From: a virus
IMG/VR virus record: IMGVR_UViG_3300031660_000027
Location: 1 to 31,234 of that record
DNA: 31,234 nucleotides
Reading direction: 5' to 3' (one strand)
The notes under the pieces were generated by a model. That model saw only the letters and a list, made by a program, of their open reading frames with translations, was not told the origin of the DNA and did not search any database. Below, in pieces: positions 2,905 through 12,628 of this stretch. The position numbers and the translations under genes are program-made. Numbering within the stretch: position 1 is the first letter of the stretch; each line of letters begins with the position of its first letter.

Positions 2905-3507
2905 TCAAAATGGTATCTCGTCACCGCCAAGATCGTAGTTCACCGGCTCGTCTGGCCGCTTCACTCTGGTCACGCTTGCCTCTGGGAACGCCTTGAATGC
3001 CTCGGCGGTAAACTTCTCTGTCCAGTCATGCTTCAGCAGCCTTGCAGCGTCCTCGAACGCATACACGACCCAATCAGGGTGCTTCCTGCGCAACTCGCTG
3101 ACGCCTGACGCCGCAAAGCACGTAACATGCCCGCCAAGGTTCACACAGAACCCGTCAGGCAGTAGCGGCTGATGTCCCGCAGCTATCGCCTCGCTCTCCA
3201 GCACATCCCACGCACGCATAAGCTGCGCGGCAATCTGATTGGTGCCCACGATGTCATCCGCATGGACCTTCTCGTACAGCGCCTCGTATGCCGCCTCAAA
3301 TCTTCCGGCCAGCTCCGGCGACACTAGGTCGGGCAACGTGTCACCCCACCGCTCAGTCTTCGCCCTCGCCTTTTCATCGAGCGGGCGTAACTGGCCCCAC
3401 ACGCCAGCACTGACAACCTTCGCCTCGCCCTCAGTCGAGAACGACCCCTTCGCCTTGATCTCCTTATGTGTCGGACGCCTCTTCGCCTCCGCCTTAGTCT
3501 TTGCCAT
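2905..3507 (-). CDS. unknown protein with SSB-type C-terminal tip
   Basis: The likely start is the ATG at 3507 (MAKTKAEAKRR), which has GGGAGAG about 8 bases upstream, giving 200 aa. A longer frame from 3528 lacks a site. The N-terminus is Lys/Arg-rich (residues 1-20) and the body is mainly helical and acidic, with no nuclease or OB motif that I recognise. The last residues, LGGDEIPF, closely match the conserved acidic (I/L)PF tip of bacterial single-stranded DNA-binding proteins, which recruits repair and replication enzymes. It sits between the replication genes and terS and just downstream of the CCACAGT repeat cluster. A role at the replication/packaging junction is inference. Confidence 0.7.
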   Translation of the reverse strand: MAKTKAEAKRRPTHKEIKAKGSFSTEGEAKVVSAGVWGQLRPLDEKARAKTERWGDTLPDLVSPELAGRFEAAYEALYEKVHADDIVGTNQIAAQLMRAWDVLESEAIAAGHQPLLPDGFCVNLGGHVTCFAASGVSELRRKHPDWVVYAFEDAARLLKHDWTEKFTAEAFKAFPEASVTRVKRPDEPVNYDLGGDEIPF

Positions 3508-3543
3508 GATCCAGCTCTCCCTTCGCAATTACGTTAAATCTTT

Positions 3544-3678
3544 CCACAGTCATTCTCCCACAACGCATCCCCTTCCTCCACAGTACCCTATACATAGGGG
3601 TACACTGTGGTGGAGAGAATACGGGCTAATATTACCACGGTGCCGCACGTATTCCACAGTCACTAAAACACACTGTGG
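3544..3678. repeat. cluster of five CCACAGT sites in both orientations
   Basis: CCACAGT occurs at 3544-3550, 3578-3584 and 3654-3660, and its complement ACTGTGG at 3604-3610 and 3672-3678. The first and fourth sites (by position) share the longer TTCCACAGTCA. The sites at 3578/3604 flank CCCTAT...ATAGGGG, making a 33-bp imperfect inverted repeat (3578-3610). The sites at 3654/3672 form a second inverted pair 11 bp apart. This fills most of the 177-bp non-coding gap between the nuclease and the SSB-tip gene, just downstream of the primase-helicase. Such clustering suggests an iteron-like replication origin, an operator, or a packaging site. Confidence 0.65.
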
Positions 3679-3684
3679 AGGGCA

Positions 3685-4104
3685 TCACGACAACACCTTG
3701 AACGAAGCCACATCAAAGTACGCGACTGGCTCTATGTCTTGCGGATCACCTCGACGCATTGTCCCGCCGGTCTGTATATCCATGTCTTCGGCGGGCAGTT
3801 TGCATATGCCGGCGGCGTCGCTCCACTGCACTGCCAGAAAGCACGGCAGCCCCGTCGCCTGCGTCAGTGTATTGGCCATCATAACCTTGTACAGCGAAAT
3901 CATGTACGTCGGGTACTGTAGCATCTTTGTTTTCCTTTGCCTCGCCTCTATGAATGCCACGGCGCTGCCATCTCTGGTTGCCATGAAGTCTAGCGACAGC
4001 TTGATCGGCATCTTTGTGAGCTGGCAGTTAAACTCCGCCTCTATGATACTTGACAGCGCCTGCTCGTTGTCCCTGTCTTGCTGCGTCTCGTATAGCGGCC
4101 TCAT
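3685..4104 (-). CDS. putative PD-(D/E)XK nuclease (resolvase-like)
   Basis: The start is taken at the ATG at 4104, whose ATGA overlaps the stop of the primase-helicase; the frame upstream of it lies inside that gene. The 139-aa protein shows the order E in EQALSSIIEAEF, an acidic residue on a strand (LSLDFMATRDG), then AFIEARQRK. This resembles the core of PD-(D/E)XK nucleases, but the usual E-x-K lysine is replaced (E-A-R). Later hydrophobic strands (PCFLAVQWSD) fit the same fold. Phages often carry small nucleases of this kind as Holliday-junction or branch-cutting enzymes beside the primase-helicase. The specific substrate is inference. Confidence 0.55.
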   Translation of the reverse strand: MRPLYETQQDRDNEQALSSIIEAEFNCQLTKMPIKLSLDFMATRDGSAVAFIEARQRKTKMLQYPTYMISLYKVMMANTLTQATGLPCFLAVQWSDAAGICKLPAEDMDIQTGGTMRRGDPQDIEPVAYFDVASFKVLS

Positions 4105-6299
4105 AGCCCCGCCTCTGCTCTGGTGATCCACTCACCCACCGACACGATTGTGACGTCCCTACCTGCGCGCTTGTCAGAAAATTGCTCAAGCTTCAGCACG
4201 CCTGTCTGTATCCACTTCTCCGCGATTGCCTTGGCCCTCGCCTTTTCCGGCTTCTTATCAATGTCCAGCTCAAGCGCGCTGGCGACGGCCTTGCCAACCC
4301 AGTTCTTGCTGCGCACGTTTTCCCTGTACGGGTCGCCGTTCTCTTCAGCCACGCCCACTGCGCGCTGAACCAGCATCGCGTGCTTAGCCTTCACGCCGTC
4401 AAATAAGTCTGGCATTTTGAATGGTATGGCGACGCCCACATACTCTTGATTGGGTAGAAGCACGCCGTGCATGCGCCTGTAGACGGCCTTGTCCGCCGGT
4501 GGCGCGAGGTTCGATTTGGCGTCATCAACTCGCATGATGCCAAGAGCCTCCTTCTCGTTCACACCCAGCTTCATCGCGTCCTCCATAGACACCTTGTTGA
4601 CAACTCTCGCTGCTCTAGCTGCGCCAATTAAACTGCCTGCGCCCCTGATGCTGTCAACCGTGGCATCATCCCCGTTTGACTTGCGGACGTGGTGCGTCAA
4701 CACCATCGCGCAGTCTGTCTTGTCACAGACCCAGCGTGCAGCGGATACAGCGGCATTCATCGCCACGTTGTCGTTCTCGTTGATGCCGTCGTTCGCGCCA
4801 ACCCACGGGTCGATAAACACCATGCCAATCCCGTACTGCTCGATCTTGTCGGACATGTACTGCACCATCTCGTCGTTCGTTGTGACGCCGTCACGGTTCT
4901 GTATCGCAAACTTGATCTGCACATCGCGCCCAGCATCCACGAACAGGCGGCCCTCGATGTCCTGCGGCTTGATGTTGTAATACTTCATTGCGGCTGCGAT
5001 GCGGCGCTGGGCCTCCTCCATCGGATCTTCTAAGTTGATCAGCCACACGTTTGTGCGCTCATGTACCGGCTCGCCAAGCAAGTCTCGGCCCGTGCAAATC
5101 GCCAGAGCCTCTACAATTTGCAGGCTGGTCTTGCCCACGCCGCCCTGAGACGCCAACACAGAGACATACGAACGTATATACGCCGTGTCATACACCCAGC
5201 GGCGCTTCGGTATCTTTTCTGGATCGATCGGCACGAACGCAGTTGGCCACTGGCGCTCGCTCTCCATTTTCTCCTGCACAACGACGGACACCGGCTTTGC
5301 GCTGGCAAGTGCCTCGCGCAGCTTGTCCTCGCCTGCCTCACGTAGATAGTCGTTGGCATCCTTGACGTTCTCAATGCCAAGCATGTCGAACCGCACCACA
5401 TGCACTGCCGTCGAGCCGTCACCCTGTAGCACATCCGAGCACTTATCAACGTCGAGGTCCGGATCTGCACATATCGTCACATCGGACGCCCGTGGCGGCG
5501 TGTATGTGGACATGCCGGCCTTGCCAAACGTACACACGACGATTGCGTCATCGCGCACGGCCTGCCTGACGCTCAGCGCATCCTCTGGCCCCTCAACAAG
5601 GCATATCGGCTTATCGCCTTGCGCTGCGCCAATTTGCATTACGTTTCCGGCGATAACGCCGCGCGAGTATTTGCTGATGCCGTTGACTTCGCGCTTGCGT
5701 CCCTCTGGTGTTAGTAAGACGCTCTGAATGCCCTCAACTACTCCTTCCGGTGTAGTTGCGGCAAAGATGATCGCCGGCCCGTCGTATACGTTCGGGCTAA
5801 ACTTCGCCACGCCGTCCGCTGTAGACGCCCGTAAGCCGCGTGAGTTCAGATACAGCAGCGCTGGGCGCACGGCGTCTGTGTTCTCGCGCGTGATCGGCAC
5901 TGCACGATCCCACGCATCACTGGCCTTGCGTATCTTCTCTGCGCGCGTCTCGTCGTCGCGTGCAATCAATTCCTTCTGAGCCAGACGTGTCACCAAGCGG
6001 TCAAGTTCGCTGGCCACGTACGGCATGCTGTCTGAGCTTTCCAGCTCCTTGGGGTTCTCGCCCCCGCGCTTAAAGCCTGACCCTATAGTCGTCTTAATCT
6101 CGATGTCGTTGAGGCCGACCTGCTTAGCTGCGGCGTGCAGCGCCATAATTGCGCTGTCTATGTTTGCCGGCGACAGGTGGGCGTGACGCCCGATCGAGAA
6201 CGCCGCCTTGTTCAGGTTCTCGTTTCTACCGCCAGACATTGACGCGGTTACATCATCAACCGCACCATCTAAAACCTTTTTGAAGTATGCTTCGGACAC
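4101..6299 (-). CDS. primase-helicase: Toprim domain plus RepA-like hexameric helicase
   Basis: This is the main replication enzyme seen here. Starting at a GTG (6299) preceded by AAGGGG, the 732-aa protein has an N-terminal helical primase-associated region (about 1-80, GGRNENLNKAAF), then a Toprim domain with LVEGPED (E236) and CADPDLD (D279/D281). A RecA-fold ATPase follows with Walker A SQGGVGKTS (384-392), INLEDP (421-426), Walker B MVFIDPW (493-499) and the sensor stretch LTHHVRK (534-540) typical of RepA/AAA_25 helicases. A C-terminal winged-helix-like end (from about 660) follows. No Cys zinc finger precedes the Toprim domain, unlike T7 gp4. It overlaps the downstream nuclease by 4 bases. 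Confidence 0.92.
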   Translation of the reverse strand: MSEAYFKKVLDGAVDDVTASMSGGRNENLNKAAFSIGRHAHLSPANIDSAIMALHAAAKQVGLNDIEIKTTIGSGFKRGGENPKELESSDSMPYVASELDRLVTRLAQKELIARDDETRAEKIRKASDAWDRAVPITRENTDAVRPALLYLNSRGLRASTADGVAKFSPNVYDGPAIIFAATTPEGVVEGIQSVLLTPEGRKREVNGISKYSRGVIAGNVMQIGAAQGDKPICLVEGPEDALSVRQAVRDDAIVVCTFGKAGMSTYTPPRASDVTICADPDLDVDKCSDVLQGDGSTAVHVVRFDMLGIENVKDANDYLREAGEDKLREALASAKPVSVVVQEKMESERQWPTAFVPIDPEKIPKRRWVYDTAYIRSYVSVLASQGGVGKTSLQIVEALAICTGRDLLGEPVHERTNVWLINLEDPMEEAQRRIAAAMKYYNIKPQDIEGRLFVDAGRDVQIKFAIQNRDGVTTNDEMVQYMSDKIEQYGIGMVFIDPWVGANDGINENDNVAMNAAVSAARWVCDKTDCAMVLTHHVRKSNGDDATVDSIRGAGSLIGAARAARVVNKVSMEDAMKLGVNEKEALGIMRVDDAKSNLAPPADKAVYRRMHGVLLPNQEYVGVAIPFKMPDLFDGVKAKHAMLVQRAVGVAEENGDPYRENVRSKNWVGKAVASALELDIDKKPEKARAKAIAEKWIQTGVLKLEQFSDKRAGRDVTIVSVGEWITRAEAGL

Positions 6300-11785: not shown

Positions 11786-11972
11786 TTTCTGCGTCCCTAA
11801 ATTCGTTCAGCTCTTTAGCCATCTGTTTCTTATCCGACATGCTGATGATGTCGCGATCTCTCAGGCGCGTTATGTCATCGCGCTGGCGGGCAACCTTGCT
11901 CTGAAGAACGCTGATTAACGTGCGAGCCTCATTCAGATTATTTTCCAACATTAATATTCTTCGGTCACTCAT
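11778..11972 (-). CDS. small coiled-coil protein, 64 aa
   Basis: The start is ATG 11972, which overlaps the stop of the upstream HTH gene as ATGA. The longer frame to 11990 is inside that gene. Most of the protein is one charged heptad-like helix (RILMLENNLNEARTLISVLQ, then KVARQRDDITRLRD). It has no catalytic motif. Dimerising accessory or regulator-binding function is possible but unproven. Confidence 0.55.
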   Translation of the reverse strand: MSDRRILMLENNLNEARTLISVLQSKVARQRDDITRLRDRDIISMSDKKQMAKELNEFRDAEND

Positions 11973-12421
11973 TGGTTGCCCCCTTTCCACCTGATCCTCA
12001 TTATCATTATATCTCTCCGGACAGTGGCCTCCGAGACGCCCAATTCAGCGGCGGCTGCGTGCTTAGTAATCATAGTGCTGGCCATTTCCTCAAGTCGATC
12101 CCGACGCGCCGAAATGTCCTCTTGATACGGCGTCGTCTTAATTGCACTTGCACGCAGTCTAACACCCAGCACCTGACAGTCCGCCCTGATCGTGGTCTGG
12201 ACGACGCGCTCCATTTGAGCGACTTGAGGTACTGTAAAAACGCCTTCCTCTGCGTAAAGCTTTACACGCTCCCGACGCTCATTTGTAAGTTGCGCTCGGC
12301 GAGCTTGGGCTAGTGCCGTTGCCTGACGCCATTTGGGTGGGTTGGGGATGCGATGATCGTGCAAGGCTTCGCGCAGCATTGCCATGCCAAGTTTCTCTTC
12401 GGCACGTTCTGCCTTGGTCAA
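11969..12421 (-). CDS. tandem-HTH regulator, about 150 aa (start uncertain)
   Basis: Although the frame is open to 12625, the stretch above 12421 has unnatural composition and is occupied by another convincing gene in a different frame. The likely start is TTG 12421, whose TTGA overlaps that gene's stop, or ATG 12383-12385. The protein has an N-terminal charged helix (LTKAERAEEKLGMAMLREAL) and two helix-turn-helix-like stretches: EGVFTVPQVAQMERVVQTTI and, near the C-terminus, KHAAAAELGVSEATVRRDI, the latter typical of DeoR-like recognition helices. It is probably a sequence-specific regulator in this small-gene cassette. Confidence 0.6.
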   Translation of the reverse strand: MTKAERAEEKLGMAMLREALHDHRIPNPPKWRQATALAQARRAQLTNERRERVKLYAEEGVFTVPQVAQMERVVQTTIRADCQVLGVRLRASAIKTTPYQEDISARRDRLEEMASTMITKHAAAAELGVSEATVRRDIMIMRIRWKGGNQ

Positions 12422-12600
12422 CGCCGGAGGGATCGCTTCAACATCTCCAAGAGCGCACGCATTTCCTCGCATTGCTGTTTCAAATTTGGGCGATCCTTCA
12501 CTGAGCTGCGCTCCAGCATGATGTCGTTGATCCGCATCAAGCGATTGAGGATGATTTGCGACTGCTCCGCTATGTGATCTGATTGTTTCGAATTGTACAT
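12418..12600 (-). CDS. small helical protein, 60 aa
   Basis: ATG 12600 follows GGAGAG by 6 bases, a better signal than any in the competing frame that covers the same DNA. The product is a charged amphipathic helix bundle candidate (IILNRLMRINDIMLERSS, KQQCEEMRALLEMLKRSLRR) with no recognised family. It ends in a TTGA overlap with the tandem-HTH gene, so the two are probably translated together. It could be a partner protein or antitoxin-like helical factor; nothing in the sequence decides this. Confidence 0.6.
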   Translation of the reverse strand: MYNSKQSDHIAEQSQIILNRLMRINDIMLERSSVKDRPNLKQQCEEMRALLEMLKRSLRR

Positions 12601-12628
12601 TATGCTCTCCGATTACGTTTACCATTAT

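Follow-up and report, generated by a model that had tools for sequence, protein, structure and literature searches.

Covariation between a phage repeat array and the C-terminal domain of the adjacent primase-helicase points to a probable replication origin

Which protein reads a cluster of short repeats lying among the replication genes of an uncultured phage, and what does the cluster do? The window analysed here is the whole stretch of 31,234 nucleotides of IMG/VR virus record IMGVR_UViG_3300031660_000027. A sequence-only reading had described five CCACAGT sites in this window, three forward and two inverted, and had offered three explanations for them, namely a replication origin, an operator for the SSB-tip/terminase genes or a pac site. 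Exact matching confirmed the five sites and their orientations, and the 33-bp imperfect palindrome that had been claimed is bounded by the pair at 3578 and 3604. The sites lie in a gap of 177 bp, from the ATG of a 200-aa SSB-tip gene to the stop of a PDDEXK_14 nuclease gene, which is the only large non-coding stretch of the replication unit, as had also been claimed. The features of the gap are as follows.

3508..3684, no strand: entire non-coding array, proposed replication origin (array and its conservation)
3544..3550, plus strand: iteron 1, CCACAGT (exact match; kept in close relatives)
3578..3584, plus strand: iteron 2, CCACAGT, left arm of the central palindrome (exact match; conserved)
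3583..3603, no strand: inner palindrome GTACCCTATACATAGGGGTAC lying between iterons 2 and 3 (in relatives the pairing persists while the sequence varies)
3604..3610, minus strand: iteron 3, CCACAGT inverted, right arm of the central palindrome (exact match)
3635..3641, plus strand: degenerate sixth site CCACGGT, one mismatch (conserved in close relatives; a perfect ACTGTGG in L127)
3654..3660, plus strand: iteron 4, CCACAGT, inverted partner of iteron 5 with an 11-nt spacer (exact match)
3672..3678, minus strand: iteron 5, CCACAGT inverted (exact match)

A count over the whole window gave 8 copies of CCACAGT for 3.4 expected, and the three copies outside the array (9597, 9937 and 16645) are scattered, at chance level. 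The clustering exceeds chance, in line with the sequence-only reading: none of 150 dinucleotide-preserving shuffles of the window matched it, the criterion being that, inside 140 bp, any 7-mer of at least three letters occurs in 5 non-overlapping copies covering both orientations. When overlapping and low-complexity words were allowed, clusters appeared in 7 of 40 shuffles, so the complexity filter matters. The turning point in GC skew looked for near 3600 was not found. Two resemblances were rejected. As DnaA boxes, the sites show only a partial likeness to TTWTNCACA, with unfit flanks (judged by eye), and a geminivirus-like TAATATTAC near 3627-3635 (plus strand) is a coincidence, present in the window and absent from L016 and L021.

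Relatives were then collected via the tip gene, the nuclease and the helicase. Alignment showed that all close relatives retaining the locus keep the array, with all five sites at identical spacing, and one clade has one additional perfect site. In more distant relatives, the array is found at the same locus with every copy altered alike, giving the words ACTGTGG, ACTGCGG, ACTGAGG, GGTGTGG, GGTGAGG and GGTGCGG; six ACTGAGG relatives have just one cluster per record. As all copies change in concert, a trans-acting protein must read the word. In L028 and L032, an unrelated motif, TTATGACG, accompanies an unrelated helicase C-terminus.

The neighbouring primase-helicase, named in the sequence-only reading among the proteins to test, covaries with the sites through two of its residues. 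Its features, and those of the genes bordering the array, are the following.

2905..3507, minus strand: 200-aa gene downstream of the array, ending in DEIPF (SSB-tip-like; no family match)
3685..4131, minus strand: PDDEXK_14 putative endonuclease, between helicase and array (Pfam)
4101..6299, minus strand: 732-aa protein with Toprim primase, RepA-type (AAA_25) helicase and C-terminal winged helix, proposed initiator (Pfam, profile and fold)
4104..4394, minus strand: C-terminal winged-helix domain, residues 636-732, proposed iteron reader (AlphaFold, weak fold matches, covariation)
4164..4166, minus strand: Ala712 codon, wing turn, predicts the middle motif base (covariation and held-out test)
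4311..4313, minus strand: Arg663 codon, predicts the first two motif bases (covariation and held-out test)

Pfam detects DUF7146, Toprim_3 and AAA_25 in the primase-helicase. The helicase part matches RSF1010 RepA (1g8y) in a profile search (E 2e-8), and the fold of the whole protein matches T7 gp4, Twinkle, DnaG and RSF1010 RepA. The C-terminal domain is predicted by AlphaFold as H-H-H-E-E, i.e. three helices and a two-stranded wing (pLDDT about 80-90); its fold matches are weak, and the domain alone gave no credible match to solved structures. In the predicted structure, residue 712 sits in the wing turn, flanked by the invariant R711 and R714.

Some relatives are nearly identical but carry different words. 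Between L022 and the group L023, L024 and L026, whose motifs differ, TerS is 95-100% identical, TerL 98-99%, and RuvC and the tip protein also 95-100%. Identity is about 97% in the helicase body and 81-82% in the helicase C-terminal domain, and at the DNA level it drops mainly at this domain and at the array. Conversely, L025 and L022 share only 88% identity in the tip gene, yet have the motif and the helicase C-terminal domain in common. These comparisons bear on the proposal that the array is a packaging (pac/cos) site read by the small terminase. Although terS is one gene away from the array, TerS is 99-100% identical between L022 and L023 while all their sites differ, so that site specificity does not follow the small terminase; moreover, the two helicase residues outperform every TerS column as predictors of the motif, and the array accompanies the helicase gene in other genomes. 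The pac site is therefore rejected, with hardly any probability left to it, and of the three explanations first offered the origin is the one favoured by the evidence.

Covariation was assessed in 95 non-redundant loci, over 2222 alignment columns from eight phage proteins. Among all these columns, helicase residue 663 is the best predictor of the first two bases of the motif (R with AC in 56/56 loci, Q with GG in 37/37) and residue 712 the best predictor of the middle base (92/94), with A, H or T at 712 corresponding to T, Q to A and D to C. Certain columns of the nuclease likewise predict the first two bases at 100%, in 38 loci of which five are GG and mostly with many residue types. A tree built from the helicase body, with the C-terminal domain left out, requires at least 8 changes of the middle base and at least 6 of the first two bases. 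All supported independent contrasts with a differing residue agree (5/5, 3/3 and 2/2), these contrasts being few and none of the three sets significant alone; the contrasts without a residue difference involve L064 and L152.

To challenge the code, we scanned for loci once it was fixed, with C-terminal domains identical to none used earlier. It was fully right for 55 of 59 loci, the remaining 4 giving no call, in a set that is phylogenetically non-independent (29 of the 60 eligible loci belong to a single Q663/D712 class). Three of the four failing loci have AGTGTGG arrays, for which the middle base was right and the first two wrong, and the fourth has a divergent C-terminal domain and an unrelated motif. 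There are other exceptions. L064 and L152 have Q712 with G as the middle base, alongside D709A, which suggests that wing residue 709 may be a second specificity position. Nor does the code hold universally, as K712 accompanies T in certain phages and G in others. In distant relatives, Q663 is still found with GG and the single K663 case with AC, residue 712 being less clear. Overall, two helicase residues predict the letters of the sites across more than 100 related viruses. Glutamine with A and aspartate with C are familiar side-chain/base pairings, and we infer that residues 663 and 712 touch the bases.

The reader of the array is thus almost certainly the neighbouring Toprim-primase/RepA-type helicase, and its physical binding to the sites is strongly implied by the covariation. 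Another phage DNA-binding protein could instead be the cognate binder, the helicase covariation being hitch-hiking. The window does encode a candidate, the helix-turn-helix protein at 11969-12625, and since most loci end short of its gene, the covariation test covered eight other proteins. Against this very unlikely scenario stand the single-residue correspondence at the wing turn, the held-out success combined with repeated independent changes, and the persistence of helicase and array together in other prophage contexts. The protein at 11969-12625 has a C-terminal DeoR-like helix-turn-helix and is a possible regulator.

The specificity domain and its sites also seem to be exchanged together. 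The window phage and L016 share 81-94% DNA identity across a stretch that begins near helicase residue 640, includes the nuclease and stops where the array ends, whereas most of the helicase body reaches only 54-74% and the tip gene 54-61%. The helicase C-terminal domain, nuclease and array therefore appear to have moved between these two phages as one recombination cassette. The nuclease gene is missing between helicase and array in L013 and L127, and many Pseudomonas phages carry genes related to the nuclease of the window. The SSB-like acidic tip of the 200-aa protein (DEIPF/DEIPW) is conserved in relatives, adjoining the array, and no tip gene was found in the cultured phages searched. Further downstream, the interval between TerS and TerL (2103-2407, about 300 bp) contains no convincing gene.

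The position of the array bears on a further possibility, that the helicase binds it to control transcription of the downstream SSB-tip, TerS and TerL genes, the array being an operator or switch with no origin involved. In most relatives, the tip gene comes immediately after the array, including cases where other genes part the array from the helicase, and sites in both orientations would suit an operator. However, no sigma-70-like promoter was found in a scan of the array, and L028 and L032 have their array upstream of the nuclease gene, away from the SSB-tip gene. The array of alphaproteobacterial prophages and phage-plasmids directly follows the helicase gene while the other neighbours, including the downstream genes, differ, and the conserved central palindrome is rather a feature of origins. 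We consider an operator unlikely, though less so than the other alternatives to an origin.

An inverted pair of sites enclosing an inner palindrome is present in 88 of the 95 loci. Among 25 distinct inner sequences, 22 exceed composition shuffles in palindromicity, a figure somewhat biased toward palindromes by the choice of the best-scoring pair at each locus. Retention of pairing under sequence change would suit a hairpin or a dyad, and most of these phages have an AT-rich palindrome centre. The strong hairpin potential at this point (z -1.98) could also denote an RNA element, either a terminator or a 5' UTR hairpin. Scans of the array gave no T-run terminator and no Rfam family, and sites outside the hairpin vary in concert with the protein, which makes a mainly RNA function most improbable.

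The arrangement extends beyond these phages. RepA-type helicase genes with an array and its central palindrome directly behind them occur in Rubellimicrobium, Defluviimonas, Lichenibacterium, Rhodoblastus and a Verrucomicrobiota MAG, and likewise in circular elements from Methylobacterium, Microvirga and Rhodoplanes. For pVL1_6, the element from Methylobacterium, Pfam recognised no other initiator among the 16 proteins scanned, a subset of its ORFs; the Microvirga lotononidis element additionally has repB and repC. A host among the Alphaproteobacteria is plausible for the window phage, judged solely from these distant prophages. Repeat arrays in both orientations also occur near distant RepA-type helicases with different C-termini (L190, 5810-6066; L191, 2866-2991; L189, 5273-5458), these clusters belonging to MW202557, Rhodoferax phage P26218 and Microcystis phage Mae-Yong1326-1. 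In MW202711, the array search found only repeats within repA.

What covariation demonstrates is recognition and not the function of an origin. An origin is the most economical reading, given that a replicative primase-helicase reads the sites, and we judge it highly probable that the array is the replication origin of the phage, its iterons being bound by the winged helix at the C-terminus of the phage's own primase-helicase. The missing turning point in GC skew speaks against an origin here. The sites of 7-8 bp, read downstream as ACTGTGGA, would be the iterons for this domain. Several helicase subunits would dock on sites of both orientations, placing the ring-shaped RepA-type helicase at the palindrome flanked by one inverted pair. 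Opening of the palindrome would expose a hairpin on which the fused Toprim domain would prime, and the host polymerase would then take over. We infer that the helicase is loaded here, that priming takes place on the hairpin and that the array acts as an origin. The best reading is a self-initiating origin like that of P4 alpha, but with a RepA-class helicase replacing the SF3 one. The more complete proposal, that there is a family of replicons whose RecA-fold replicative helicase, of the RepA/DnaB class, includes a domain for origin recognition and is self-loading, with a 663/712 code rewritable by one or a few substitutions and swappable as a cassette between phages, seems to us reasonably likely.

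The helicase of P4 alpha is of the SF3 type, and P4 has a second region, crr. In P4 alpha, a winged helix binds the origin repeats, and Toprim primase, helicase and winged helix are joined in one polypeptide (PMC4234260), as here with Toprim_3 and AAA_25. The helicase here has the RepA/RecA fold (AAA_25), not SF3, hence we did not file the protein as a P4-alpha member; the specificity of domain for repeat appears here as covariation and a predictive code. In RSF1010 (IncQ), the tasks are split over three proteins, RepA, RepB' and RepC, and iterons are accompanied by the stem-loops ssiA and ssiB as priming sites (PMC4234260). RSF1010 RepA (1g8y), a hexameric helicase, is the closest helicase of known structure by sequence, but a single phage protein would here combine primase, helicase and DNA-reading domain, and no match to RepC, the separate iteron-binding protein, was found among the window proteins scanned, a subset of the ORFs. 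ORF904 of pRN1 is a primase-helicase with a C-terminal winged helix and a stem-loop origin downstream of its gene, the shape of the stem-loop being conserved and not its sequence, as here (PMC4234260); it differs in its primase type, its SF3 helicase and the absence of iterons. Lastly, the excerpted text on PLE describes a RepA_N initiator whose DNA-binding domain covaries with the origin iterons, both being swapped as a module, and contains no residue code (PMC8263062), whereas RepA_N is predicted neither as a helicase nor as a primase (PMC7145576). The present system is a combination of these known features with a RepA-class helicase, and our literature search, which covered few subscription journals, returned no paper describing it.

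These data would provide a sequence-readable rule linking initiator and origin for a large group of uncultured phages, so that the protein by itself would suffice to locate their origins. It also becomes directly testable how a DnaB/RepA-class ring helicase can be placed at an origin without a separate initiator. In addition, the relatives form a natural series of specificity switches, some only a few residues apart, useful for studying the evolution of protein-DNA recognition. By analogy with PLE and an origin-directed nuclease (PMC8263062), this frequent switching may reflect competition over origins.
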